From NCBI RefSeq assembly GCF_022763245.1, contig NZ_JALEGV010000005.1, positions 124,001-188,000 on the forward strand: a stretch of DNA of 64,000 bases. The letters run 5' to 3'. This document shows positions 15,486 through 28,380 of the stretch, in pieces (positions within the stretch are counted from its first letter, which is position 1; every line of letters begins with the position of its first letter). The notes below the pieces were generated by a model that worked only from the letters and a program-made list of their open reading frames with translations, did no database searches and was not told the DNA's origin. Both the position numbers and the translations under genes were made by a program. Source of the stretch: Oricola sp. Lineage in GTDB: Bacteria > Pseudomonadota > Alphaproteobacteria > Rhizobiales > Rhizobiaceae.

Positions 15486-16529
15486 CCTGTCCGGCTCACG
15501 TCCGGTACCGGTCGTGGCGGTGCGGCGAAAGCGTTGACGGTAGCGCGCGAGCGTGGTGCCGGTCTTCCGCTTGAACAATCGGCGGAAGAAGGCCGGTTCC
15601 TCGTAGCCGACCTCACGGCCGATCTGGTCCGTCGGCATGTCGCTCGTCTCCAGGAGATGCTTGGCCTCCTCGACACGCAGTGACTGCACGTAATCGATCG
15701 GCGCGAAGCCCGTCGCCGCCTTGAAGCGCCGCTTGAAGGTCCGCTCGTTCAGGCCGGACAGCGCCGCCATCCGGGCGACTGGGGCAGGATCGTCGTAGTG
15801 GGCACCGACCCATTCCTGGCACTTGCCGATCACCGCGTCCTCGTGCTGGCGCGGCAACATCGCAGCAAAGGGCAGTTGCCCCTCGCTGCGGTCGCCGAGC
15901 AGATAGACCTTCGCCGCGCGGCGCGCCTCCTCCTCGCCGGCATAGCGGGCGATCAAGTAGAGGAGAAGGTCCTGCCAAGCCGACATGCCGCCGGCCGTGA
16001 TGATCCGGTGCTCCTTGCCCGCCGGCTGCAGTATCCTCTCCGGCCTCAGCAGCACGCCCGGGAAACACTGAGTCATGATGCCGACCGCCATCCAGTGCGT
16101 CGTCGCCTCGATGCCGTCGAGCAATCCCGCTCTCGCCAAGAGCACCGCGCCCGTGCAGACGGAGCAGATCGTCGCTCCCGCCGCGTATTGGCGGGACAGC
16201 CATTCGGCGACCTCCGGCCAGGCCTCGCGCGGATCGCAGTCCGGGCGGATGTCTATGTCGGTGACGATGACGAGATCGAACACGTCATCCGACACGACCG
16301 ATCGCCCCGGCGTTACCGGCACGCCCACCAGCGTGCAGAAGGGCTGATCGTCGACCGCCACGAGTTCGACCTCGAAACGCGGGAACACCTGCCCGTCGCC
16401 CATCACCTGCTGCCAGACGACTCCGACCGAGGACAGGATTTCGAACATCCCGTACATCGCCGTGGGGGTCGTTTCCGGCAGTGCGAGGATCGCGGTGCGG
16501 ATCCGTGCCTTCGTGTTTTCGTCGGCCAT
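15471..16529 (-). CDS. GlxA-type transcriptional regulator (DJ-1/PfpI + AraC)
   Basis: The protein (352 residues from the ATG at 16529) has an N-terminal DJ-1/PfpI-like domain, with the elbow-type Cys near GATICSVCTGAVLLARAGLL. A C-terminal AraC-type pair of helix-turn-helix motifs follows (VARMAALSGLNERTFKRRFK and PTDQIGREVGYEEPAFFRRL). Such GlxA/FtrA-like regulators sense small metabolites through the N-terminal fold. It is divergent from the flavin monooxygenase and methyltransferase genes, which it probably controls from the shared region 16530-16653. An upstream in-frame extension to 16679 would invade that region and is rejected. Confidence 0.9.
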   Translation of the reverse strand: MADENTKARIRTAILALPETTPTAMYGMFEILSSVGVVWQQVMGDGQVFPRFEVELVAVDDQPFCTLVGVPVTPGRSVVSDDVFDLVIVTDIDIRPDCDPREAWPEVAEWLSRQYAAGATICSVCTGAVLLARAGLLDGIEATTHWMAVGIMTQCFPGVLLRPERILQPAGKEHRIITAGGMSAWQDLLLYLIARYAGEEEARRAAKVYLLGDRSEGQLPFAAMLPRQHEDAVIGKCQEWVGAHYDDPAPVARMAALSGLNERTFKRRFKAATGFAPIDYVQSLRVEEAKHLLETSDMPTDQIGREVGYEEPAFFRRLFKRKTGTTLARYRQRFRRTATTGTGREPDRSLPG

Positions 16530-16653
16530 GGGGCCATCGTTGTCACAAACGGACCGTTTCTGTCCAGATTCGATCTCACGCCCCGAGCCGTCCTTCTCCA
16601 AACAGAGCGCACACCGCCTAGGCGGCAGCAACCACCCCTGTTGGAGAACTCGA

Positions 16654-17862
16654 ATGAACACACCGCCAACCATCGGCACTCATGATGCCGTCATCGTGGG
16701 CGCCGGACTGTCCGGCCTCAGTCTCGCCTGGGAACTGAAGCGCAAGGGCATCCGCGCAGTCATCCTGGAGAAGGAAACCGAAATCGCCGCACCGTGGCAA
16801 CGCCGGCATCCGCAACTGCGCCTGAACACGCACCGCAGGCTGTCGAGCCTGCCCGGTTACGCCCTGCCCAGGCACGGGCCGGCCTTTCCCTCTCGCGATG
16901 AGATCATTGCCTATCTGGAACGCTACGCGGCGCAGACAGACGCGGACATCCGGTTCGGCACCGCCGTGAAACGGCTGGACCGATGCGGGGACGATTGGGA
17001 ACTGACCACCGACGCGGGCCCGGTGCGGGCGCGCAATGTGATCTTCGCCACCGGCAAGGAAAACACCCCTCGTATTCCCGACTGGCCCGGCAGGGCACGC
17101 TGGCGCGGCGAACTGATTCACTCGGCCGCACTCGGTGACGTGTCGCGCTACGCCGGCTTGGACGTGCTCGTCGTCGGCGCGGGCAATTCGGGCTCCGACG
17201 TCCTCAATCACCTCGCCGGCGTCGACACCCGCTCGCTCTCGGTTGCAGTCAGGCAAGGATCGGTGGTCGTGCCCTCGCGCCTGCTCGGTTTCCCGATGCA
17301 GCTTGCCGCGCCGATCATGGACGCGCTGCCGAATTGGCTCGTGGACCGGCTGCTATTCGACACCGAGCGGCTCGCCTTCGGCAGGTTGGAGCGTTTCGGC
17401 TTCCCGGTCCGCAAAGGTGGCGCCAGCCGTTTGCTCGCCGAAGGTGTCTCGCCGGCGATCGACAACGGTTTCATAGCCTCGCTCAAGGCGGGCAAGGCGT
17501 CCATCGTGCCTGCGATCGACCGCTTCGAGGAGGACGCCGTCATCCTCTCCGACGGGCGGAGACTGAAACCCGACATCTTGATCGCGGCGACCGGATACCG
17601 AACAGGGCTGCACGGCCTGCTCGACCACCTCGGCGTCCTGTCGGACCACGGCTATCCGCAGGCCGGTACCGACGGCGCGGCGATCGGCCAGCCCGGGCTC
17701 TGGTTCGCCGGCATGGCGCCTCGCATGAGCGGCTATTTCCGCGCCGCCAGCAAGAACAGCCCTGTGATGGCGGAGGCGATCTCGCAATGCCTGGCCGCGT
17801 CCCCGCGGCACGAACTCCTCAACCTTCGCGGGCCGGCGCCCGTTCTCAACCCCGCCGAATGA
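16654..17862 (+). CDS. Flavin-containing monooxygenase family protein
   Basis: A 402-residue flavoprotein with an N-terminal FAD-binding motif (VIVGAGLSGLSLAWELKRKG, GxGxxG) and a second NADPH-binding motif (VLVVGAGNSGSDVLNHLAG). The sequence also shows ATGYRTGLHGLL near the end, the ATGY box found in flavin monooxygenases and trimethylamine/ornithine hydroxylases. It would oxygenate a nitrogen, sulfur or carbonyl carbon of an unknown small molecule. The ATG at 16654 directly precedes the FAD motif and a TTGGAGAA site lies 5' of it. A methyltransferase gene follows 36 bases later, so the two likely act in one pathway. Confidence 0.87.
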   Translation: MNTPPTIGTHDAVIVGAGLSGLSLAWELKRKGIRAVILEKETEIAAPWQRRHPQLRLNTHRRLSSLPGYALPRHGPAFPSRDEIIAYLERYAAQTDADIRFGTAVKRLDRCGDDWELTTDAGPVRARNVIFATGKENTPRIPDWPGRARWRGELIHSAALGDVSRYAGLDVLVVGAGNSGSDVLNHLAGVDTRSLSVAVRQGSVVVPSRLLGFPMQLAAPIMDALPNWLVDRLLFDTERLAFGRLERFGFPVRKGGASRLLAEGVSPAIDNGFIASLKAGKASIVPAIDRFEEDAVILSDGRRLKPDILIAATGYRTGLHGLLDHLGVLSDHGYPQAGTDGAAIGQPGLWFAGMAPRMSGYFRAASKNSPVMAEAISQCLAASPRHELLNLRGPAPVLNPAE

Positions 17863-17898
17863 TCGGCGACCAACCCGACCATGGAAAGGATCAAACCC

Positions 17899-18984
17899 AT
17901 GTCACTCCCGCTTGAAACGCAATCCACACCCGACATGACCGAGGCGGCGGCGTTCGCCGAAACCGTCGGAAGCATCATCAATTCCGGGGCCATCTCGATC
18001 ATGGTGTCGATCGGTCATCGCACTGGCTTGTTCGACCTGCTGGCCGACATGCCCCCGGCCACGTCACAGGACATCGCCGATCATGCCGCGCTGGCCGAGC
18101 GCTATGTGCGTGAATGGCTCGCCGTCATGGTGACAGGCGGCATTGTCGTTTATGACCCGGCGCGGCGGACCTATCAGCTACCCGCCGAACATGCCGCCTG
18201 CCTCACCCGCGCTGCCCCGCTCGGCAATCTTGCCGTCTATGCGCAGTTCGTCTCGATGGCCGGCTCGGTTCAGGAGAAGATCCTCGAGTGCTTCGAGACC
18301 GGCGACGGGCTTTGCTATCACGACTATCCGTGTTTTCACCGCATCATGTCGGAAGACAGCGAGATGACCGTGATCGCCGGTCTCTTCGACGCGATCCTGC
18401 CGCTGGTGCCGGGTCTGACCGAACGTCTCGAGGCGGGTATCGACGTGCTCGACGCCGGTTGCGGCTCCGGGATCGCCCTGGTCGAAATGGCGAAGCGCTT
18501 TCCGGCCAGCCGCTTTACTGGCTACGATTTGTGCGAGGACGCGCTTGCGACCGGTCGCAAGGCCGCAGCCGGGCTGGACAACGTCCGCTTCGAGGTTCGC
18601 GACCTGACAGGATTCGACGAACCGGAAAGCTACGATTTCATCACTTCGTTCGACGCGATCCATGACCAGAAGGATCCGCAGGGGCTGCTGAACGGCATCC
18701 ATGGCGCGTTGCGCGCCGGCGGCACCTATCTCGTCCAGGATATCGGCGGATCGGCCAGTCTGGAGAACAATCTGGACTTTCCGTTCGCAGCCTTCCTCTA
18801 CACGGCCTCATGCCTGCACTGCACGCCCGTCTCGCTCGGCCAGGGCGGTGAAGGTCTCGGCACGATGTGGGGATGGGAGACGGCGAAGCGGATGCTCGCC
18901 CAGTCCGGCTTCAAGGACGCGGCGATGCATCGCTTCGAACACGACCCGCTCAATGTCTGGTACGTTTGCCGGAAATCGCCCTGA
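17899..18984 (+). CDS. Class I SAM-dependent methyltransferase with N-terminal winged helix
   Basis: The protein has an N-terminal winged-helix dimerisation region (IGHRTGLFDLLADMPPATSQDIADHAALAERYVREWL), as in O-methyltransferases, and a Rossmann-type C-terminal domain with the SAM motif DVLDAGCGSGIALVEMAKRF (about residues 187-206). It resembles the Rv2258c-type methyltransferase group. The start at 17899 is preferred over 17881 because GGAAAGG stands 9 bases before it. It follows the flavin monooxygenase gene in the same direction. A hydroxylation-then-methylation pathway on an unknown small molecule is an inference from this pairing. Confidence 0.87.
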   Translation: MSLPLETQSTPDMTEAAAFAETVGSIINSGAISIMVSIGHRTGLFDLLADMPPATSQDIADHAALAERYVREWLAVMVTGGIVVYDPARRTYQLPAEHAACLTRAAPLGNLAVYAQFVSMAGSVQEKILECFETGDGLCYHDYPCFHRIMSEDSEMTVIAGLFDAILPLVPGLTERLEAGIDVLDAGCGSGIALVEMAKRFPASRFTGYDLCEDALATGRKAAAGLDNVRFEVRDLTGFDEPESYDFITSFDAIHDQKDPQGLLNGIHGALRAGGTYLVQDIGGSASLENNLDFPFAAFLYTASCLHCTPVSLGQGGEGLGTMWGWETAKRMLAQSGFKDAAMHRFEHDPLNVWYVCRKSP

Positions 18985-19077: not shown

Positions 19078-19100
19078 AACATGACAAAAAATATCATGTT
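19078..19100. promoter_or_regulatory. Operator-like dyad upstream of the FecBCD-type operon
   Basis: AACATGA and TCATGTT form a perfect 7-bp inverted repeat with a 9-base AT-rich spacer. The dyad ends 5 bases before the -35 box at 19106. A further TCATGTT half-site sits at 19119-19125, inside the -35/-10 spacer. A repressor binding all three would block the promoter. I cannot match the sequence to a known regulator. Confidence 0.6.
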
Positions 19101-19105
19101 CGAAC

Positions 19106-19134
19106 TTGACAATCTAACTCATGTTTTCTTGATA
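19106..19134 (+). promoter_or_regulatory. Sigma-70-type promoter of the FecBCD-type operon
   Basis: TTGACA (19106-19111) matches the -35 consensus exactly. A 17-base spacer leads to TTGATA (19129-19134), a moderate -10. The first gene starts at 19168, giving a leader of about 25 bases. Together with the flanking dyad this looks like a tightly switched promoter. Confidence 0.6.
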
Positions 19135-19167
19135 GGCTCGCATCCATAGGACAACGGAGCCTTTCAA

Positions 19168-20262
19168 ATGTCCCTCTCAACCCTCCGGGCAGCGCTGCTC
19201 GCTGCCGGCGCGGTTTTCGCCGGCGCGTCAGCCGTCCAGGCCGACCCCGTCACCACGACCGACCTCAACGGCCGAACCGTGACACTGGACAAACCCGCCG
19301 AACGCATCGTCATGATCCCGATCCCGTCATCATCGACGGTCATCGCCCTCGACGGCACCACAGACCATCTTGTCGGCATGCACCCGTTGTCGAAGTCGGC
19401 GATCGAGGAAGCGATCCTCGGCGAGTTCTTCCCGGATGCGAAGGACATCGCTTCCGACATCATCGCGTCGGGCGGCAGTTCCGGCTTTTCGCCGAATGTG
19501 GAGGCCATCGCCGCGCTTCGGCCGGATCTCGTGGTGCAATGGGGCCATCAGGGCGAAGACATCGTCGCGCCGCTGACCAATGCGGGGCTGACGACCGCCC
19601 TGATCCAGTATGGCACCGAGGAGAAGGCGCGCGACATCATCAAGCTGCTCGGCACGCTGATCGGCAAGCCGGAGAAGCTCGACGAGATCATCGCCTGGCG
19701 CGACGACACCACGGCCAAGATCGAAGCCGGCCTCGAAGGCCTGTCCGACGAGGACAAGCCGAGCGTGCTCTATCTGCTGCGCGCACAGACTGAACTGCGT
19801 GCCTCCGGCACCGGCTCCTACAACGACTTTTACATCAATCTCGCCGGCGGGAAGAACGCGGCGGCGGAACTCCAGGGGCTGAAGCCGGTCAATGCGGAGC
19901 AGGTCGCGGCCTGGAACCCGGACGTGATCCTGCTCAACGGTTTCGAATCGGAACTCGATGTCAGCCGCATCTATGACGACCCGATTCTCGGCGCGACCAA
20001 CGCCGCGATCAGCAAGCGCGTCTACAAGATGCCGATCGGCGGCTATCGGTGGGATCCCCCGAGCCAGGAATCGCCGCTCACTTGGCAGTGGCTGGCAACG
20101 CTGCTGCACCCCGACCTCTTCGACTTCGACATTCGCGGCGAAATCACCGGCTGGTACGCCAAGCTTTACGGCCAGACGCCGACGGCGGAGCAGATCGACG
20201 GAATCCTGCGTGTTTCGATGAATGGCGGCGGCGCCAATTACGACCGCTTCCTGGCGGACTGA
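19168..20262 (+). CDS. FecB/BtuF-type ABC transporter substrate-binding protein
   Basis: A 364-residue periplasmic protein whose signal peptide ends near AVQADPVT. It shows the class III (cluster A) binding-protein pattern: DLNGRTVTLDKPAERIVMIP, followed by ALRPDLVVQWG and, near the C-terminus, WDPPSQESPLTWQWLATLLHPD. Known relatives bind ferric siderophores, heme, cobalamin or molybdate/tungstate. No histidine cluster of Zn or Mn binders is evident. The gene begins a coupled operon; the permease starts 6 bases after its stop. The substrate cannot be read from sequence; the distal genes suggest something other than a standard ferric siderophore. Confidence 0.87.
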   Translation: MSLSTLRAALLAAGAVFAGASAVQADPVTTTDLNGRTVTLDKPAERIVMIPIPSSSTVIALDGTTDHLVGMHPLSKSAIEEAILGEFFPDAKDIASDIIASGGSSGFSPNVEAIAALRPDLVVQWGHQGEDIVAPLTNAGLTTALIQYGTEEKARDIIKLLGTLIGKPEKLDEIIAWRDDTTAKIEAGLEGLSDEDKPSVLYLLRAQTELRASGTGSYNDFYINLAGGKNAAAELQGLKPVNAEQVAAWNPDVILLNGFESELDVSRIYDDPILGATNAAISKRVYKMPIGGYRWDPPSQESPLTWQWLATLLHPDLFDFDIRGEITGWYAKLYGQTPTAEQIDGILRVSMNGGGANYDRFLAD

Positions 20263-20268
20263 GGCACG

Positions 20269-21327
20269 ATGTCCGATACGGCCATCCATGCGCGCGGGCA
20301 GTCGCTGCCCGCGCGCGGCAGCGGCGCTGTCTGGCTTGCGGCCTTCGGCGGCCTTCTGATTGTCGCCATGCTGGTCAGCCTCGGGCTGGGACGGCTGTCG
20401 ATCCCCCTGCCCACGGTCGCCGCGATCGTCGGCCACCTCGCGCTGCCGGTTCCAGAGAGCTGGACGGTGCTGGAAGAACGGGTCGTCCTCCTGGTCCGCG
20501 AGCCGCGCGTGCTGCTGGCGGCCCTCTCAGGTGCGGGGCTGGCGATGTGCGGTGCGGCTCTTCAAGGCATTTTCCGCAACCCCCTCGTCTCGCCGCAGAT
20601 CCTCGGCATTTCGCCGGGTGCGGCCTTCGGCGGGGCGCTCGCCATCCTGCTCGGCCATGCCGGCGTCGTGCTGATCGGCTCGTCCTTCGTCTTTGGTGTC
20701 GCGGCGCTGGTGACCGTCGGTCTGATCGCGCGTATCGACGGGCGCACCGAGACGGCGACCATCGTTCTGGCCGGCATCATCGTCGGCGCGCTTTTCTCGG
20801 CGCTCGTCTCGCTTCTTCAATTCGTCGCCGATCCCGATTCGTCGCTGCCGGCGATCGTGGGCTGGCTGATGGGGTCTTTCGCCTCCGCCACTTGGCCCCG
20901 TCTTGCGCTCGCCGCCCCGGCCATCCTGATCGGCGTGATCGGCCTCTTCTTCCTGCGGTTTCGCGTCAACGTTCTGTCGCTGGGCGATGACGAGGCCCGC
21001 TCGTTCGGCGTTTCCGTGGAACGCGACCGCTGGATCTTCTTCATACTGGTGGCGCTGACCACTGGCGCCGTCGTTTCGGTTGCCGGGGTGATCGGCTGGG
21101 TCGGCCTCGTTGTGCCGCATGCCGCGCGCCTGCTGGTCGGTGAAGACCATCGCATTCTCGTCCCGGCCTCCGGGCTGCTCGGCGGCGCCTATCTCGTGAC
21201 CGTCGACACGATTTCGCGCACCGCTACCGCAGCCGAAATCCCGCTCAGCGTTCTGACGGCGATCATCGGCGCGCCGGTCTTCGCGATCCTGTTGCGCCAC
21301 TCCTGGCGAAAGGAGCATGCACGATGA
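20269..21327 (+). CDS. FecCD-type ABC transporter permease
   Basis: 352 residues with about ten hydrophobic helices, as in BtuC. Typical family stretches are GAALQGIFRNPLVSPQILGIS, which is the FecCD hallmark (LQ...NPL..P..LG), VRWGDDEARSFGVSVERDRW-like sequence before the penultimate helices, and GVIGWVGLVVPHAARLLVGEDHR near the end. It forms the inner-membrane channel as a dimer. The stop overlaps the ATPase start by 4 bases (ATGA). Confidence 0.92.
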   Translation: MSDTAIHARGQSLPARGSGAVWLAAFGGLLIVAMLVSLGLGRLSIPLPTVAAIVGHLALPVPESWTVLEERVVLLVREPRVLLAALSGAGLAMCGAALQGIFRNPLVSPQILGISPGAAFGGALAILLGHAGVVLIGSSFVFGVAALVTVGLIARIDGRTETATIVLAGIIVGALFSALVSLLQFVADPDSSLPAIVGWLMGSFASATWPRLALAAPAILIGVIGLFFLRFRVNVLSLGDDEARSFGVSVERDRWIFFILVALTTGAVVSVAGVIGWVGLVVPHAARLLVGEDHRILVPASGLLGGAYLVTVDTISRTATAAEIPLSVLTAIIGAPVFAILLRHSWRKEHAR

Positions 21328-22088
21328 CCACACTGACCGGCGCCGGCGTGCGCTTCGGATCGCGGTGGATCTTCCGCAATCTCGACCTTCACGCGCCGGT
21401 GGGCCGCAGCCTCGCCATCCTCGGCCCGAACGGGCGCGGCAAGACCACGCTCCTGCGCTCGCTTCTCGGCTTCCAACCGCTGACCGAGGGCCAGCGCGAC
21501 GCGCCGTCCGTGATCGGCTATGTGCCGCAATATGCGAGCCACGAGGTCGGCTATTCCGTTCGCCAGGTTGTCGCCACCGGCCGCGTCGCCCAGCGCGGCC
21601 TCTTCGCCCAGCCGACCGCGGGCGACATGGAGGCTGCCGATGACGCGCTCGCGCGTGTCGGCATGGTCGGTTTCGCGGAAAACCGTTTCGACTGGCTTTC
21701 CGGCGGCGAGCGCCAGTTGGTGCTGCTGGCCCGGGCTATTGCCACGGGCGCCACGACCCTCGTCCTCGACGAACCGGCCTCGGCGCTCGACCTGCGCAAC
21801 CAGGACCGCTTTCTCGCGGTCGTCGATTCGCTTCGGGAGGACGGGGACCACGCGATCCTGTTCACCACCCACCTGCCCCAGCATGCTGCCGCGGTCGCAG
21901 ACGACGCGCTGCTGCTCTACGGGCCGGAAGACCGCCTTCTCGGCCCGGTGGAGGACACGGTAACCGAGGACGCCATCGCCCGGCTCTACGGCATCCCTGT
22001 TCGGATCGTCGATTGCGACCTGCCGGGCGGCGCGCGCCCGGCCCGTGGCGTCATTCCCCTATTCGGTCAAGCCGGGAGCCAGGCATGA
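21324..22088 (+). CDS. FecE/BtuD-type ABC transporter ATP-binding protein
   Basis: 254 residues with all nucleotide-binding motifs: Walker A LGPNGRGKTTLLR (Gly-Arg replacing the usual Gly-Ala/Ser), Q-loop near YVPQYASHE, signature LSGGERQLVLLARAI, Walker B LVLDEPASALDLRNQ and the H-loop in LFTTHLPQHAAAV. It energises uptake through the FecCD-like permease. ATGA overlaps with both neighbours show strict translational coupling. Confidence 0.93.
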   Translation: MTTLTGAGVRFGSRWIFRNLDLHAPVGRSLAILGPNGRGKTTLLRSLLGFQPLTEGQRDAPSVIGYVPQYASHEVGYSVRQVVATGRVAQRGLFAQPTAGDMEAADDALARVGMVGFAENRFDWLSGGERQLVLLARAIATGATTLVLDEPASALDLRNQDRFLAVVDSLREDGDHAILFTTHLPQHAAAVADDALLLYGPEDRLLGPVEDTVTEDAIARLYGIPVRIVDCDLPGGARPARGVIPLFGQAGSQA

Positions 22089-22708
22089 GCAGACACGCCA
22101 TTTTCATCGTCTCGACCGACGCCCCCATGCCGGCGCAGTTCGTCGAGTTGCAGAGCCAAGGTCTCGTCCTCCCGGTGCGCCAGGACAGGCTGACGCCCGA
22201 AATCATCGCCAGCGCGGCGGGGCTGATCGCGACGGCCAGCGTCGACCAGATCGACCTGCTGTCCAAACGCGACGCCATCATGAAGCTGCTCGACACGGGT
22301 GGCCGGATGGTCGTCAACGGCCACGTCATGCGCCCGTTCATCGACGGATTGGAGACATTCGTGCCGCTGCAACATCCGGGCCGGGCGAGCTACACGTTGA
22401 CCCGGCTTGCCGCGCATCCGGTGTTCGACGACATTCCCGCCAAGACGCTCGAGACCAATCGCGGCGTCGCCGGTTTCTACGGACGCGGCTACAACCCGCC
22501 GCCGCCGGGCGCGATCGCGATCACCGGGATCGGCCCGGATCAATTGCCGGTCGACTGGGTCTGGCAGCGCCCGGCCGGCGGGTCGCTGTTCGTCCATTCA
22601 GGCAATGATCTGTGGGGCGTCGGCGACGATGCACAGATCAAGAAGAAGATTGCGGAACGGCTGGTTGGCTGGTGCCGCGCCGCATCGCGCACGGAGGCGT
22701 TCGCATGA
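22085..22708 (+). CDS. Hypothetical protein, possible class I amidotransferase-like fold (first of two)
   Basis: 207 residues, no signal peptide and no membrane segment. The visible pattern is a Rossmann-like alternation of strands and helices with the loop LDTGGRMVVNGH (residues 74-85). This has the shape of the nucleophile elbow of ThuA/GATase-like proteins, but with Gly-His where catalysis would need Cys. A second similar region is in FVHSGNDLWG. It resembles the next gene in layout (GG-x-MV-x-x-G), suggesting an old duplication. Coupled by ATGA overlaps on both sides, it is committed to the transporter. The function is unknown. Confidence 0.72.
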   Translation: MSRHAIFIVSTDAPMPAQFVELQSQGLVLPVRQDRLTPEIIASAAGLIATASVDQIDLLSKRDAIMKLLDTGGRMVVNGHVMRPFIDGLETFVPLQHPGRASYTLTRLAAHPVFDDIPAKTLETNRGVAGFYGRGYNPPPPGAIAITGIGPDQLPVDWVWQRPAGGSLFVHSGNDLWGVGDDAQIKKKIAERLVGWCRAASRTEAFA

Positions 22709-23322
22709 GCATCCTGGCAATCAATGGCGGCTCTGCCTACCAGATCGAGGCGGTCGAAGGGCGTCATGCCGGCTTCTTCGACGCCGCGATCAGGCCGGAG
22801 GAAATCGCCCGGACCGCCCTTGCCGCCTTCGACTGCGTCATCGTCCTGTGTCGCACGCCGGCCTGGCGCATGGAGCCCGTTGCAGACCGATTGCTCGCCT
22901 ATCTGGATCGCGGCGGCACGATGGTTGCCATGGGCGAATGCCACAGCGAGCGCTGGCTGCCCGGCATCTCGTTCGAGCCGTGCGAGACGAATTTCTGGTG
23001 GTGGCTCACACCGGGCGCCGACCTCGGCACGCAGGTCGTCAAGCCGCAGCACGCCCTGTTCTCACACATCGGCGAGAACGACATTCGCTGGCACCTGCAC
23101 GGCTCCTTCGACGCGCCCGAGGGCGCCGAGGTACTTGCGACGAACAAGGAAGGGCGCGCGATCCTCTATGTCGACGAGGTGACGACGCGCGGGCGGATGA
23201 TCGTCACCAGCCTCGATCCCTTCTTCCATCACGGACACCATTTCATGCCGGCCACGACCCGTTTTCTGGACGGGTTTCTGCCGTGGCTTCAAGAAGACAT
23301 CAAACGAAAGGCGGCCGCATGA
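22705..23322 (+). CDS. Hypothetical protein, possible class I amidotransferase-like fold (second of two)
   Basis: 205 residues, cytosolic. DRGGTMVAMGECHSERWLPG (about residues 70-90) looks like the glycine-rich turn with a Cys at the elbow (GEC), as in ThuA/GATase1 folds; a histidine-rich segment FFHHGHHFMP occurs near residues 172-181. The His-Cys combination could be catalytic or metal-binding; this is inference. It is paralogous in layout to the preceding gene and coupled to it by an ATGA overlap, and to the FmdE-like gene likewise. Unlike its partner, this copy keeps the Cys, so it may be the active member of a pair. Confidence 0.72.
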   Translation: MSILAINGGSAYQIEAVEGRHAGFFDAAIRPEEIARTALAAFDCVIVLCRTPAWRMEPVADRLLAYLDRGGTMVAMGECHSERWLPGISFEPCETNFWWWLTPGADLGTQVVKPQHALFSHIGENDIRWHLHGSFDAPEGAEVLATNKEGRAILYVDEVTTRGRMIVTSLDPFFHHGHHFMPATTRFLDGFLPWLQEDIKRKAAA

Positions 23323-23825
23323 CGCGGGACACGATCACCGTTCTCGAGAACGAAAAGCCCCTCACCTACGACATCGACGCGCTGACGCTCTATCACGGCT
23401 ACGGCTTTCCCGGCGGCGTGGCGCATGGCTTCCGCGTGATGCAGCGCGCCTTCGCCCTGCTGAGCTCGGACAATCCTCCCGAACGACGGTCGATCTCAGT
23501 GCGCACGGCCTTTCGTGGCCCCGGCGCGCGCGACGCATTCGAGATGGTTACGCGCTCGACGAGCGAGGAGCGCTACGTGATCGATGACGCGCTGGCGGAA
23601 CCCGAGCGCGGCGAGACGCTCATGCGCTATGTCTTCCATGTTTCCTGTGGCGACGAGACTGTTCGCCTGCATATCCGCGACGGCATCGTGCGCGACGACT
23701 TCATCGCGCTAGGCCGCAAGCCGGATCGCACCGCGCAGGAGGAGGAACGCCTTGTCGACCTGAAGCGCGACATGGCCGAGCGGCTGTTCGCCCTGCCCGC
23801 CCACCAGATCTACGAGCAGTATTGA
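23319..23825 (+). CDS. FmdE-like protein
   Basis: 168 residues, soluble. The stretch LYHGYGFPGGVAHGFRVMQRAF resembles the FmdE signature (HGH...PG...LG-R), and RGPGARDAFEMVTRST fits the following conserved G-x-G/A-x-DA-E/I-x-x-x-T block. FmdE-type proteins were first seen with molybdenum/tungsten formylmethanofuran dehydrogenases and are often encoded near metal ABC importers in bacteria. The zinc-finger C-terminus of archaeal FmdE is absent here. The gene is last in the six-gene coupled operon and lies convergent to the aldo/keto reductase gene. The role is unknown; a part in handling the imported metal or cofactor is inference. Confidence 0.65.
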   Translation: MTRDTITVLENEKPLTYDIDALTLYHGYGFPGGVAHGFRVMQRAFALLSSDNPPERRSISVRTAFRGPGARDAFEMVTRSTSEERYVIDDALAEPERGETLMRYVFHVSCGDETVRLHIRDGIVRDDFIALGRKPDRTAQEEERLVDLKRDMAERLFALPAHQIYEQY

Positions 23826-25859: not shown

Positions 25860-26597
25860 GTGTCGAAATCGAAACTGGTGCGCCAGCAGATCTGGGCCGG
25901 GCTGAAGGACGTCGCGAAACCCGATACGCGCTTTCACCTCAACTTCGCCGAGGTCATCCCGGACTTCGAAGGCTCGGAGCTCGCCACCGATCGTCTCGTC
26001 GAGATGGACGCCTACGGATCCTGCACAAACGCCTTCATCACGCCGGACAATTGCCTCGTCGATCTGCGTCGCAGGATGATCGAAGCCGAAATTCCCTTCG
26101 TCATGTCGACCTACGGCATCTATCGCGGCTTCCTCTTGATGGAGCCCGGCATGGTGCCGAAAGGCGCGGAACTCTACGCCGCATGGCTCGACGGCATGGA
26201 GCATTTCGGCCGGCCGATCTCGCTTGAGGAAATCGCCGGGCGCGGCCGCTTCGACCTGATGGTCACAGGCGCGTCCGCCGTCTCCGTCGATGGTGTGCGC
26301 TTCGGCAAGGGACACGGCTTCTTCGACCTCGAATGGGGCATGTTCACCGATCTCGGCATCGTCGACGAGGCCACGCCGGTGGTCGCCGTCGTCCATGACT
26401 GTCAGGTCGTCGAAGAGAAGCTGCAGCCGAGCGAAACCGACATCCTGGTCGACACGATCGCGACACCGACGCGCCTCCACACAGTGGAACGGCGCGCCAG
26501 GCGCCCAAAGGGTGTGCGCTGGGAACTGCTCGACCCCGAACAGATCAGCGTCACGCCGCCGCTTCAGGAACTGCAACGCATCAGGGGCCTCGCCTGA
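25860..26597 (+). CDS. 5-formyltetrahydrofolate cyclo-ligase family protein
   Basis: 245 residues, starting at a GTG with AAAGGGG before it. The region DLMVTGASAVSVDGVRFGKGHGFFDLEWGMF has the GKGxGFxD pattern of the family, which in authentic enzymes binds ATP and converts 5-formyl- to 5,10-methenyl-tetrahydrofolate. The N-terminal half diverges from true FthC, so the natural substrate may be another folate-like or pyrimidine-related molecule. It is followed by a periplasmic binding protein, ATPase and permease, and is divergent from an RpiR regulator. A link between the imported compound and one-carbon/folate chemistry is inference. Confidence 0.85.
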   Translation: MSKSKLVRQQIWAGLKDVAKPDTRFHLNFAEVIPDFEGSELATDRLVEMDAYGSCTNAFITPDNCLVDLRRRMIEAEIPFVMSTYGIYRGFLLMEPGMVPKGAELYAAWLDGMEHFGRPISLEEIAGRGRFDLMVTGASAVSVDGVRFGKGHGFFDLEWGMFTDLGIVDEATPVVAVVHDCQVVEEKLQPSETDILVDTIATPTRLHTVERRARRPKGVRWELLDPEQISVTPPLQELQRIRGLA

Positions 26598-26638
26598 TTT
26601 CCTTCCCAGACCGCCACCGCAACCAAATGGAGACCGCA

Positions 26639-27610
26639 ATGAGACTTTCCATGGACAGACGCCACTTCATGGGCCTGATGGCCGGAACCGCAACCTTGCC
26701 TTTCCTGCCACGCGCCGCTTCGGCAGCAACACCGCTCACCATGCAGGCCGCCTGGATCAATGACGCCGAATTCTCCGGCTATTTCGCCGCGATCGACAGC
26801 GGTTTCTACGGAGAAGAAGGGCTAGACCTGACCTATTTGTCCGGCGGCCCGGATGTCATCCCGGAAAGCTCGATCATCGCCGGAAAGGCCGATCTTGCGC
26901 TGACGACGCCGGACACCACCATCAAGGCGATCGTCGAACAGGGCGCTCCTTTCAAGATCATCGGCGCGCAGTATCAGAAGAACCCGATCGGCATCGTCTC
27001 GCTGACGTCGAACCCGATCGCGACGCCGCAGGACCTCGTCGGCAAGACGCTCGCCGTTCCGCCGGTGAATGTGATTTCGGTGGAGGCGATGTTGAAGATG
27101 AACAACATCGATCCCGCCGACGTGAAGATCGTGCCCTACGCCTACGATCCGACGCCGCTGATCAAGGGCGAGATCGACGCCTCGCTCGATTTCACCACCA
27201 ACGTGCCCTACACGATCAGCCTGCAGGGCGTGGAGGCGACGTCGTTCCTGCTCTATGATTTCGGCTACACGATCTACAACGACACTGTCGTCGTGACCGA
27301 AGACGTCCTCGCCTCCAAGCGCGCCGAACTCGTGTCCTGGCTGCGGGCGAGCCGCAAGGGCTGGGAAGCGAACTTCACGGATCCGGAAGCCTGGCCGCCG
27401 AAGTTCGCCGACAGCTGGTTCAAGGGCACGGGGCGCACCATCGACAACGAGATCTTCTTCAACAAGGCGCAACAGCCCCTCATGGAAGCGCCGGGCGGCA
27501 TCTTCTCCATGACCGAAGAGGACATCCAGAAGAACATCGACGCGCTGGGCGCGGTCGGCATCACCGCAACGCGCGAGATGTTCGACACCACGCTGCTCGA
27601 AGAAGTCTGA
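26639..27610 (+). CDS. NMT1/SsuA-type ABC transporter substrate-binding protein (Tat signal)
   Basis: A 323-residue periplasmic binding protein with a twin-arginine-like signal (MDRRHFMGLMAGTATLPFLPRAASA). The start at 26639 is preferred over 26627 because GGAGA stands before it. The mature part shows the NMT1/THI5/SsuA pattern: MQAAWINDAEFSGYFAAIDSG, followed by YGEEGLDLTYLSGGPD, and LVGKTLAVPPVNVISVEAML. Relatives bind sulfonates, nitrate, taurine or the thiamine precursor hydroxymethylpyrimidine. Its gene lies between the cyclo-ligase-like gene and the ATPase gene, which starts in its stop (TGATG). Confidence 0.9.
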   Translation: MRLSMDRRHFMGLMAGTATLPFLPRAASAATPLTMQAAWINDAEFSGYFAAIDSGFYGEEGLDLTYLSGGPDVIPESSIIAGKADLALTTPDTTIKAIVEQGAPFKIIGAQYQKNPIGIVSLTSNPIATPQDLVGKTLAVPPVNVISVEAMLKMNNIDPADVKIVPYAYDPTPLIKGEIDASLDFTTNVPYTISLQGVEATSFLLYDFGYTIYNDTVVVTEDVLASKRAELVSWLRASRKGWEANFTDPEAWPPKFADSWFKGTGRTIDNEIFFNKAQQPLMEAPGGIFSMTEEDIQKNIDALGAVGITATREMFDTTLLEEV

Positions 27611-28380
27611 TGAACGACACGGCGGGCATCGCACTGACGGGGGTCTCCAAGACCTTCGTCGGGCGCGGCCGGACTGTCGAGGCGCTGAAAGACGCCTCGC
27701 TGTCCTGCCCGCCGGGGTCCTTCACCGCCCTGATCGGACCGTCAGGCTGCGGCAAGTCGACCATATTGCGGCTTGCCCTCGGGCTCGACAGCGCCGACAC
27801 GGGCACGATCGCCATCGACGGCCTGACGCCGGAGAAGGCCACGAAAGGCGGCGTGACCGGCGTCGCCTTCCAGGACGCGGCGCTGATGCCGTGGCGAACC
27901 GTCCGGCGCAACGTCGCCCTGCCGCTGGAGGTGCTGGGCCGAGACGTGAAGGCTGCGCAAGACAGCATCGAAGCGCTCATCTCGATGGTCGGCCTCGGCG
28001 GCTACGAGGAATCCCTGCCGGGAGAACTCTCCGGCGGCATGCGGCAGCGCGTCGCCATCGCGCGTGCACTCGTCACGCATCCCAAGGTCCTGTTTCTGGA
28101 TGAACCCTTCGGCGCCCTCGACCAGATCCTGCGGCGCCAGATGAACATCGAGCTGCAGCGCATCTGGCGCGAAACGGGATCGACCGCGCTGCTCGTGACG
28201 CACGGTATCGATGAAGCCGTGTTCCTGGCCGACCGGGTCGCGGTCATGCATGCCGGGCCCGGCCGCATCGTCGAGGTTGTCGATATTCCATTCGAACGCC
28301 CCCGCTCACCGGATCTCTTCACCTCACCGGATTTCCATGCGCTGACAGACCGCATCGAGGGCATCCTGCATGGCAAGTGA
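27610..28380 (+). CDS. SsuB/TauB-type ABC transporter ATP-binding protein
   Basis: 256 residues with Walker A IGPSGCGKSTILRLALG, signature ELSGGMRQRVAIARAL, Walker B VLFLDEPFGALD and the H-loop in LLVTHGIDEAVFLADRV. This is the usual partner of NMT1/SsuA-type importers. It overlaps the binding-protein stop by one base and overlaps the following permease gene by 11 bases, so the operon is translationally coupled. Confidence 0.95.
   Translation: MNDTAGIALTGVSKTFVGRGRTVEALKDASLSCPPGSFTALIGPSGCGKSTILRLALGLDSADTGTIAIDGLTPEKATKGGVTGVAFQDAALMPWRTVRRNVALPLEVLGRDVKAAQDSIEALISMVGLGGYEESLPGELSGGMRQRVAIARALVTHPKVLFLDEPFGALDQILRRQMNIELQRIWRETGSTALLVTHGIDEAVFLADRVAVMHAGPGRIVEVVDIPFERPRSPDLFTSPDFHALTDRIEGILHGK

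Follow-up and report, generated by a model that had tools for sequence, protein, structure and literature searches.

The stretch analysed here, referred to as the window, is a 64,000-nucleotide segment of the Oricola sp. assembly GCF_022763245.1 (contig NZ_JALEGV010000005.1, positions 124,001 to 188,000 of the forward strand). Six plus-strand open reading frames (ORFs) at 19168-23825 encode a binding protein, a permease, an ATPase, two middle proteins and an FmdE-like protein. The two middle proteins (207 aa and 205 aa) are homologous and were given the working names MID1 and MID2; together with the FmdE-like protein they are called the trio below. Four ATGA overlaps, at 21324, 22085, 22705, and 23319, were read in the sequence and are common to the permease/ATPase, ATPase/MID1, MID1/MID2, and MID2/FmdE-like junctions, which confirms the six-gene, one-direction operon described in an earlier note on this DNA. 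All three importer components scored over their Pfam cut-offs and are encoded in the one operon, as in a FecBCD-type ATP-binding cassette (ABC) importer. The features of the locus are as follows:

19079..19099, strand not given: iron box 1, ACATGA-N9-TCATGT, of the RirA iron-responsive operator (IRO) type (TGA-N9-TCA)
19104..19124, strand not given: iron box 2, ACTTGA-N9-TCATGT
19168..20262, plus strand: periplasmic substrate-binding protein (Peripla_BP_2), 364 aa, Pfam 74.5 bits, over cut-off
20269..21327, plus strand: FecCD-family permease, 352 aa, Pfam FecCD 279.7 bits, over cut-off
21324..22088, plus strand: ABC ATPase, 254 aa, Pfam ABC_tran 76.4 bits, over cut-off
22085..22708, plus strand: MID1, 207 aa, homologue and partner of MID2, with conserved D54, R134, and H171
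22705..23322, plus strand: MID2, 205 aa, predicted class I amidotransferase-like fold, no conserved Cys
within 22705..23322, plus strand: conserved MID2 residues H116, H130, H175, D171, W99, W100, and W129
23319..23825, plus strand: FmdE-like protein, 168 aa, a remote relative of PF02663

The two boxes preceding the binding-protein gene read ACATGACAAAAAATATCATGT and ACTTGACAATCTAACTCATGT. They have the form TGA-N9-TCA published for the RirA operator (passages of PMC8822346 and PMC6386902), and an fhuA IRO box is quoted in a passage of PMC10510648. An exact search of the 5.63 Mb genome for ACWTGA-N9-TCAWGT gave five sites, the two described above and three on contig 17, against 0.3-0.4 expected from base composition. 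With one mismatch allowed, 36 places were found in the same genome versus 14 for a reversed control pattern, so that single weak matches mean little. The contig-17 boxes precede a minus-strand series including ExbB-/TonB-like ORFs (named by eye) and lie between a heme-type TonB receptor gene (TIGR01785 and TIGR01786 both over cut-off) and a HemS gene, followed by binding-protein, FecCD, and ATPase ORFs. The genome also encodes RirA (NF008886, 241.8 bits; cut-off 193), and the operon thus combines a TGA-N9-TCA promoter site with an encoded RirA, the two sequence marks of a RirA regulon. Since the boxes lie in the promoter and are shared with heme/TonB-like genes, and since RirA is encoded, we favour, as a reasonably probable reading, an importer of a ferric chelate that is induced by iron starvation and equipped with dedicated cytoplasmic proteins to handle the chelate. 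The sequence strongly suggests both import and iron control, and the cargo is probably a ferric chelate rather than molybdenum/tungsten (Mo/W) or nickel.

The middle proteins had been considered related to each other and members of no nameable family, and both statements were borne out. MID1 and MID2 are homologous by hhalign (probability 99.5, E 2e-22); a Pfam search matched MID1 to no family, and the sole match of MID2 was ThuA (PF06283) at E 0.12, with 13.0 bits against a cut-off of 33.4, too low for membership. The predicted structure of MID2 matches GATase1/ThuA structures and points to a class I amidotransferase-like fold, which MID1 would share through its homology to MID2. The amidotransferase-like fold suggested in the earlier note therefore stands as a prediction for the pair, minus the conserved nucleophilic Cys of class I glutamine amidotransferase enzymes, which MID2 lacks. 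The cysteine of its GEC turn, C79, taken earlier as a kept feature, is retained in only 6 of 61 relatives (alignment rows), and a Cys nucleophile in MID2 was rejected on this count. Three His and one Asp (H116, H130, H175, and D171) are near-invariant among the 61 relatives, and no other conserved Cys or Ser nucleophile is present among the listed near-invariant residues. MID2 differs from ThuA, STM3548, and DUF4159 in the missing conserved nucleophilic Cys, in its own Trp/His motifs, and in its pairing with MID1. These residues bear on the proposal that MID1-MID2 are amidase- or esterase-like hydrolases cleaving an imported siderophore, and not proteins that bind chelates and hand them on. 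The class I amidotransferase-like fold does include hydrolases, the His/Asp set of MID2 could still activate water, and the operon logic would be that of iron release by ligand hydrolysis, as in Fes-type esterases; with C79 so rare and no other conserved nucleophile in the list, hydrolysis appears quite unlikely.

MID1 homologues were found in 9 of 201 relatives. The MID2 profile matched 27 of 397 genomes from the order and 4 of 398 from the phylum (the genome of the window counted in each), and the MID2 search returned 8 loci in the genome collection and 32 plasmid records. The plasmid and genome matches include Spirochaetes, Pseudomonas, Cupriavidus, Aliivibrio, Paenibacillus, and a haloarchaeon. 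PDB sequence searches with the MID1, MID2, and FmdE-like profiles led nowhere, as did PHROGs and viral-contig searches.

In total, 62 MID groups were mapped (mapped loci carry L-numbers; L011, which coincides with L068, and the short initial copies L001-L010 were left out), and 61 of them contain a MID1-MID2 pair. Of 60 pairs, 18 are fused into a single reading frame, with either protein coming first, which argues for a MID1-MID2 complex. An importer of the Fec, Nik/Opp, or Ssu class stands beside 60 of the 62 groups, and an Fbp-like one at L028, whose neighbouring genes encode an Fbp-like binding protein, a BPD permease, and a TOBE ATPase. L018 has no Fec, Nik/Opp, or Ssu permease; its contig stops some 290 bases beyond MID2, and its MID1 match is partial. 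Permeases within 6 kb on either strand were of Fec type at 41 groups, Nik/Opp at 21, and Ssu at 4, in counts that overlap and that include Nik/Opp genes near L012, L022, and L051 possibly unrelated to MID. The genome of the window has only two full-length FecCD genes, besides two weak partial matches, and any one gene there therefore has a probability of about 0.4% of falling within 6 kb of a complete FecCD gene (Fec class only). The arrangement is not due to chance, since related genomes carry the operon too and MID homologues are again found by importers in other phyla. In a MID2 tree built by a quick method from 61 rows, 7 changes of importer class are required, and the starred branches impose a minimum of 4 for Fec and 3 for Nik; L053 (Fec) and L039_1 (Nik) are each nested in a group of the opposite importer kind. 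The pair thus retains its identity while the importer is swapped. TonB receptors adjoin several MID pairs (L013, L023, L030, L033, L054, and L062), in favour of an iron-chelate cargo.

As separate observations on these loci, NikB, NikC, and NikA genes stand with MID1-MID2 in L042-L046, L048-L050, L055, L061, and L069-L071; no Nik-type ATPase was flagged within these operons, and it may be encoded elsewhere. L013 is flanked by two C4 antisense RNA matches (717-800 and 16083-16167).

The FmdE-like label of the last gene holds as remote homology and not as family membership. The window protein scored 14.9 bits against a PF02663 cut-off of 22.9, whereas 8 of 14 members of its family match PF02663 at E up to 1 (best 1.4e-4), and the hhalign probability against FmdE is 79 (68 in global mode). 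The canonical FmdE cysteine motifs (HGHxCPG and a later Cys) are absent from the FmdE-like protein, the canonical set being 5 of 16 loci chosen by a motif filter that required HGHxCPG. In contrast to FmdE proper, the window protein is found in an importer context and not with formylmethanofuran dehydrogenase. The order-level survey revealed FmdE-like genes in 21 of 397 genomes, 13 of them near MID. Seven of the 8 MID-free loci lie beside Ssu-type importers carrying NMT1/THI5-type binding proteins and one beside a HupE/UreJ gene; a further 39 plasmid records matched.

FmdE-like genes also provide a bridge to carbon-phosphorus (C-P) lyase. The order Fec-type importer, FmdE-like gene, phnG-H-I-J-K-L was found on plasmids of Martelella (L019), Rhizobium (L024 and L108), Agrobacterium vitis (L110), and Proteus (L107, the same module as in L020), and the Labrenzia plasmid L025 has an importer, an FmdE-like gene, and phnG-H as far as the end of the stretch. 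Both forms are adjacent in L110, namely importer-MID1:MID2-FmdE followed by LysR and importer-FmdE-phnGHIJKL. The products of phnG, phnH, phnI, and phnJ in L019, and those of phnI and phnJ in L107, passed their Pfam cut-offs, and PhnJ retains its cysteine pattern, CX2CX21C with a later Cys. Sister modules thus have in common with the C-P lyase operons (phnGHIJKLM) the four proteins PhnG to PhnJ; unlike the latter, they lead with a Fec-type importer and an FmdE-like gene, mostly have iron-box-like sites, and have no phnM annotated in the modules opened. In a box scan of five phn-linked modules, L019, L024, L108, and L110 had boxes with 1-2 mismatches 34-37 bases upstream of the binding-protein gene, and L107 had none at this level; the first binding-protein gene of L110 has no box at the scan threshold. 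A one-mismatch box was present in 3 of 7 Ssu-FmdE loci. The window operon itself contains no phn genes. Polyphosphonates chelate iron, according to a passage of PMC10574752, and the phn-linked modules may be read, in the boldest step of the interpretation, as taking up a ferric phosphonate and then destroying its ligand.

The same neighbourhoods could mean that an organic compound, such as a phosphonate, is imported as a nutrient or signal, the metal being incidental and MID1-MID2 and FmdE acting on the organic part. The occurrence of FmdE-like genes with phnGHIJKL fits this explanation, as do the Ssu-type importers with NMT1/THI5-type binding proteins at 7 of 8 MID-free loci; it is at odds with the iron boxes, including those at 4 of the 5 phn-linked modules and 3 of the 7 Ssu-FmdE loci, and with the siderophore receptors of TonB type that adjoin the MID pairs of L023 and L033, and we consider it unlikely.

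Some FmdE-like loci are of interest in their own right. The Fec-type importer, FmdE-like, and phnGHIJKL module of a Proteus mirabilis plasmid (L107:4405-12082) has near-identical copies in 8 plasmid records at ≥99% identity (Proteus 5, Morganella 2, and Klebsiella 1), and the plasmid was typed as mobilizable. The Escherichia coli plasmid pDETEC45 (L021:11953-15430) carries a Ssu/NrtA-type ABC importer flanked by two FmdE-like genes, and tandem FmdE-like genes follow a Ssu/NrtA-type importer in L098, L099, and L100.

Several results weigh against a ferric-chelate importer with a dedicated trio. An FmdE-like gene is near only 25 of the 62 MID groups and is thus not obligatory; the conserved co-occurrence that the earlier note proposed as a check holds for the pair (61 of 62) and the importer (60 of 62) and only in part for this gene. 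Upstream of the binding-protein gene, a box with ≤2 mismatches was found in 19 of 36 regions of relatives, in favour of iron control, and was lacking in 17 (L013, L015 (2), L017 (2), L023, L026, L030, L032, L033, L038, L056, L058, L059, L060, L062, and L064), in a scan that included near-copy rows (L019 and L025) and L015 and L017 twice, and whose random control sampled whole loci and not intergenic DNA, so that the fractions are optimistic. Only 1 of 17 tested Nik/Opp-type loci has an iron box (L052, exact). For the binding proteins of some Nik/Opp relatives (L042, L048, and L061), the best scores come from nickel models, at 250-271 bits where the cut-off is 600, and HupE/UreJ-type proteins are encoded beside MID or FmdE in L014, L052, and L103. 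On the supporting side, L030 and L062 have Fur-like boxes (4/19 mismatches each) before the TonB receptor gene heading the cluster, whereas the Fur-like match of L013, with 6 mismatches, was not counted; the Fur/ICE scans used consensus sequences, with 100-150 random stretches per locus as controls.

The last two adverse results are those expected of the main rival, an importer of a nickel/cobalt chelate in which MID1-MID2 and FmdE pass the metal on, and Fec-like nickel importers exist. The iron boxes in the window promoter and before the Nik-type operon L052 argue against it. All nickel models remained below cut-off, with none over cut-off listed for the binding protein or permease of the window operon, and for the L039 and L052 binding proteins the top-scoring model is an oligopeptide one. 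NikA binds Fe-EDTA, as stated in a passage of PMC11091072, and a NikA-like protein is therefore no proof of nickel. A nickel/cobalt cargo is accordingly held to be improbable.

The earlier note had hinted at a Mo/W or cofactor cargo. An importer of molybdate, tungstate, or a cofactor (cobalamin or F420-0) would agree with the resemblance of the permease and ATPase to BtuC and F420-0 models, below cut-off, and with the match of the binding protein to HI_1472 (56.9 bits), which we take to be MolA. Set against this are the iron boxes in the promoter and specific models far below cut-off: at the operon, no NCBIfam model for BtuC, BtuF, or F420-0 reached its cut-off and no cognate riboswitch was found, and no Rfam riboswitch lies at the operon or next to MID in 14 further loci. 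Mo/W, cobalamin, and F420 cargoes were rejected on these grounds, and such a cargo is very improbable. The wider interpretation in the earlier note, of the operon as a metal or cofactor uptake-and-handling module, is partly supported. The cobalamin riboswitch of L014 (11561-11775) lies past the MID/FmdE operon, before other genes.

Upstream of the operon, a flavin monooxygenase gene (16588-17862) and an HTH_65 methyltransferase gene (17881-18984) were rejected as members because they lie 5' of the iron-box promoter and nothing homologous to them was flagged next to the operons of the near relatives L035 and L068. The closest model for the monooxygenase is ArsO (158 bits against a cut-off of 425). 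A second importer operon (25860-28380, ORFs named by eye) comprises a 5-formyltetrahydrofolate cyclo-ligase-like ORF (25860-26597), an NMT1/THI5-like binding protein (26627-27610), and an ABC ATPase (27610-28380).

In the ferric-chelate mechanism that we infer, from RirA binding and the ligand to the heterodimer, iron release, and every chemical step, RirA would sit on both boxes and keep the operon off when iron is plentiful, and the operon would be expressed when iron is scarce. The binding protein would capture a ligand-bound ferric complex, which the FecCD permease and ATPase would import whole. In the cytoplasm, a MID1-MID2 heterodimer may take over the complex and help to free the iron, with the His, Asp, and Trp residues of MID2 and Arg, His, and Asp of MID1 as candidate contacts; the FmdE-like protein would act afterwards, on the freed ligand or iron. 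In the sister modules, C-P lyase beside FmdE would destroy a phosphonate ligand. More speculatively, and with clear doubt, the trio may be a portable cytoplasmic machine for dismantling ferric chelates that at least four unrelated families of importers bring into bacteria and archaea, with a sister form in which an iron-controlled C-P lyase destroys a phosphonate iron ligand.

The importer parts belong to the same Pfam families as those of FecBCD, FhuBCD, and HmuTUV, and the operon shares its iron boxes with the heme cluster of the genome. Unlike those systems, it adds three translation-coupled cytoplasmic genes, and no specific NCBIfam model reaches its cut-off. The closest functional parallel is the way in which HmuS/HemS assists heme importers: a cytoplasmic protein handles the iron complex, and its gene lies with those of the importer behind a common operator. 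HemS is encoded at the other boxed locus. In the sequence searches made here, however, MID1-MID2 and the FmdE-like protein were unrelated to HemS.

The importer is therefore of a known kind, and its cytoplasmic partners are undescribed so far as the literature searches show. No description of the trio was found in open-licence PubMed Central papers, where searches for FmdE with C-P lyase, C-P lyase with RirA, and "FmdE family" with transporter returned nothing, and those for an amidotransferase-like protein with a siderophore ABC importer nothing related, by title. FmdE searched together with siderophore led to PMC10308882, a passage of which uses fmdE for a formate dehydrogenase gene.

To our knowledge, how iron is removed from imported chelates and what becomes of the ligand are known for only some siderophore classes. 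The recurrence of the trio beside unrelated importers points to an undescribed handling of imported iron complexes. A pair that stays constant while the importer class changes, joined to C-P lyase through FmdE, is a testable candidate for a general chelate-handling step, and it suggests a role for protein families annotated only as "hypothetical" in the records opened. If the sister form does destroy a phosphonate iron ligand under iron control, C-P lyase would there have a role in the supply of iron and not of phosphorus.

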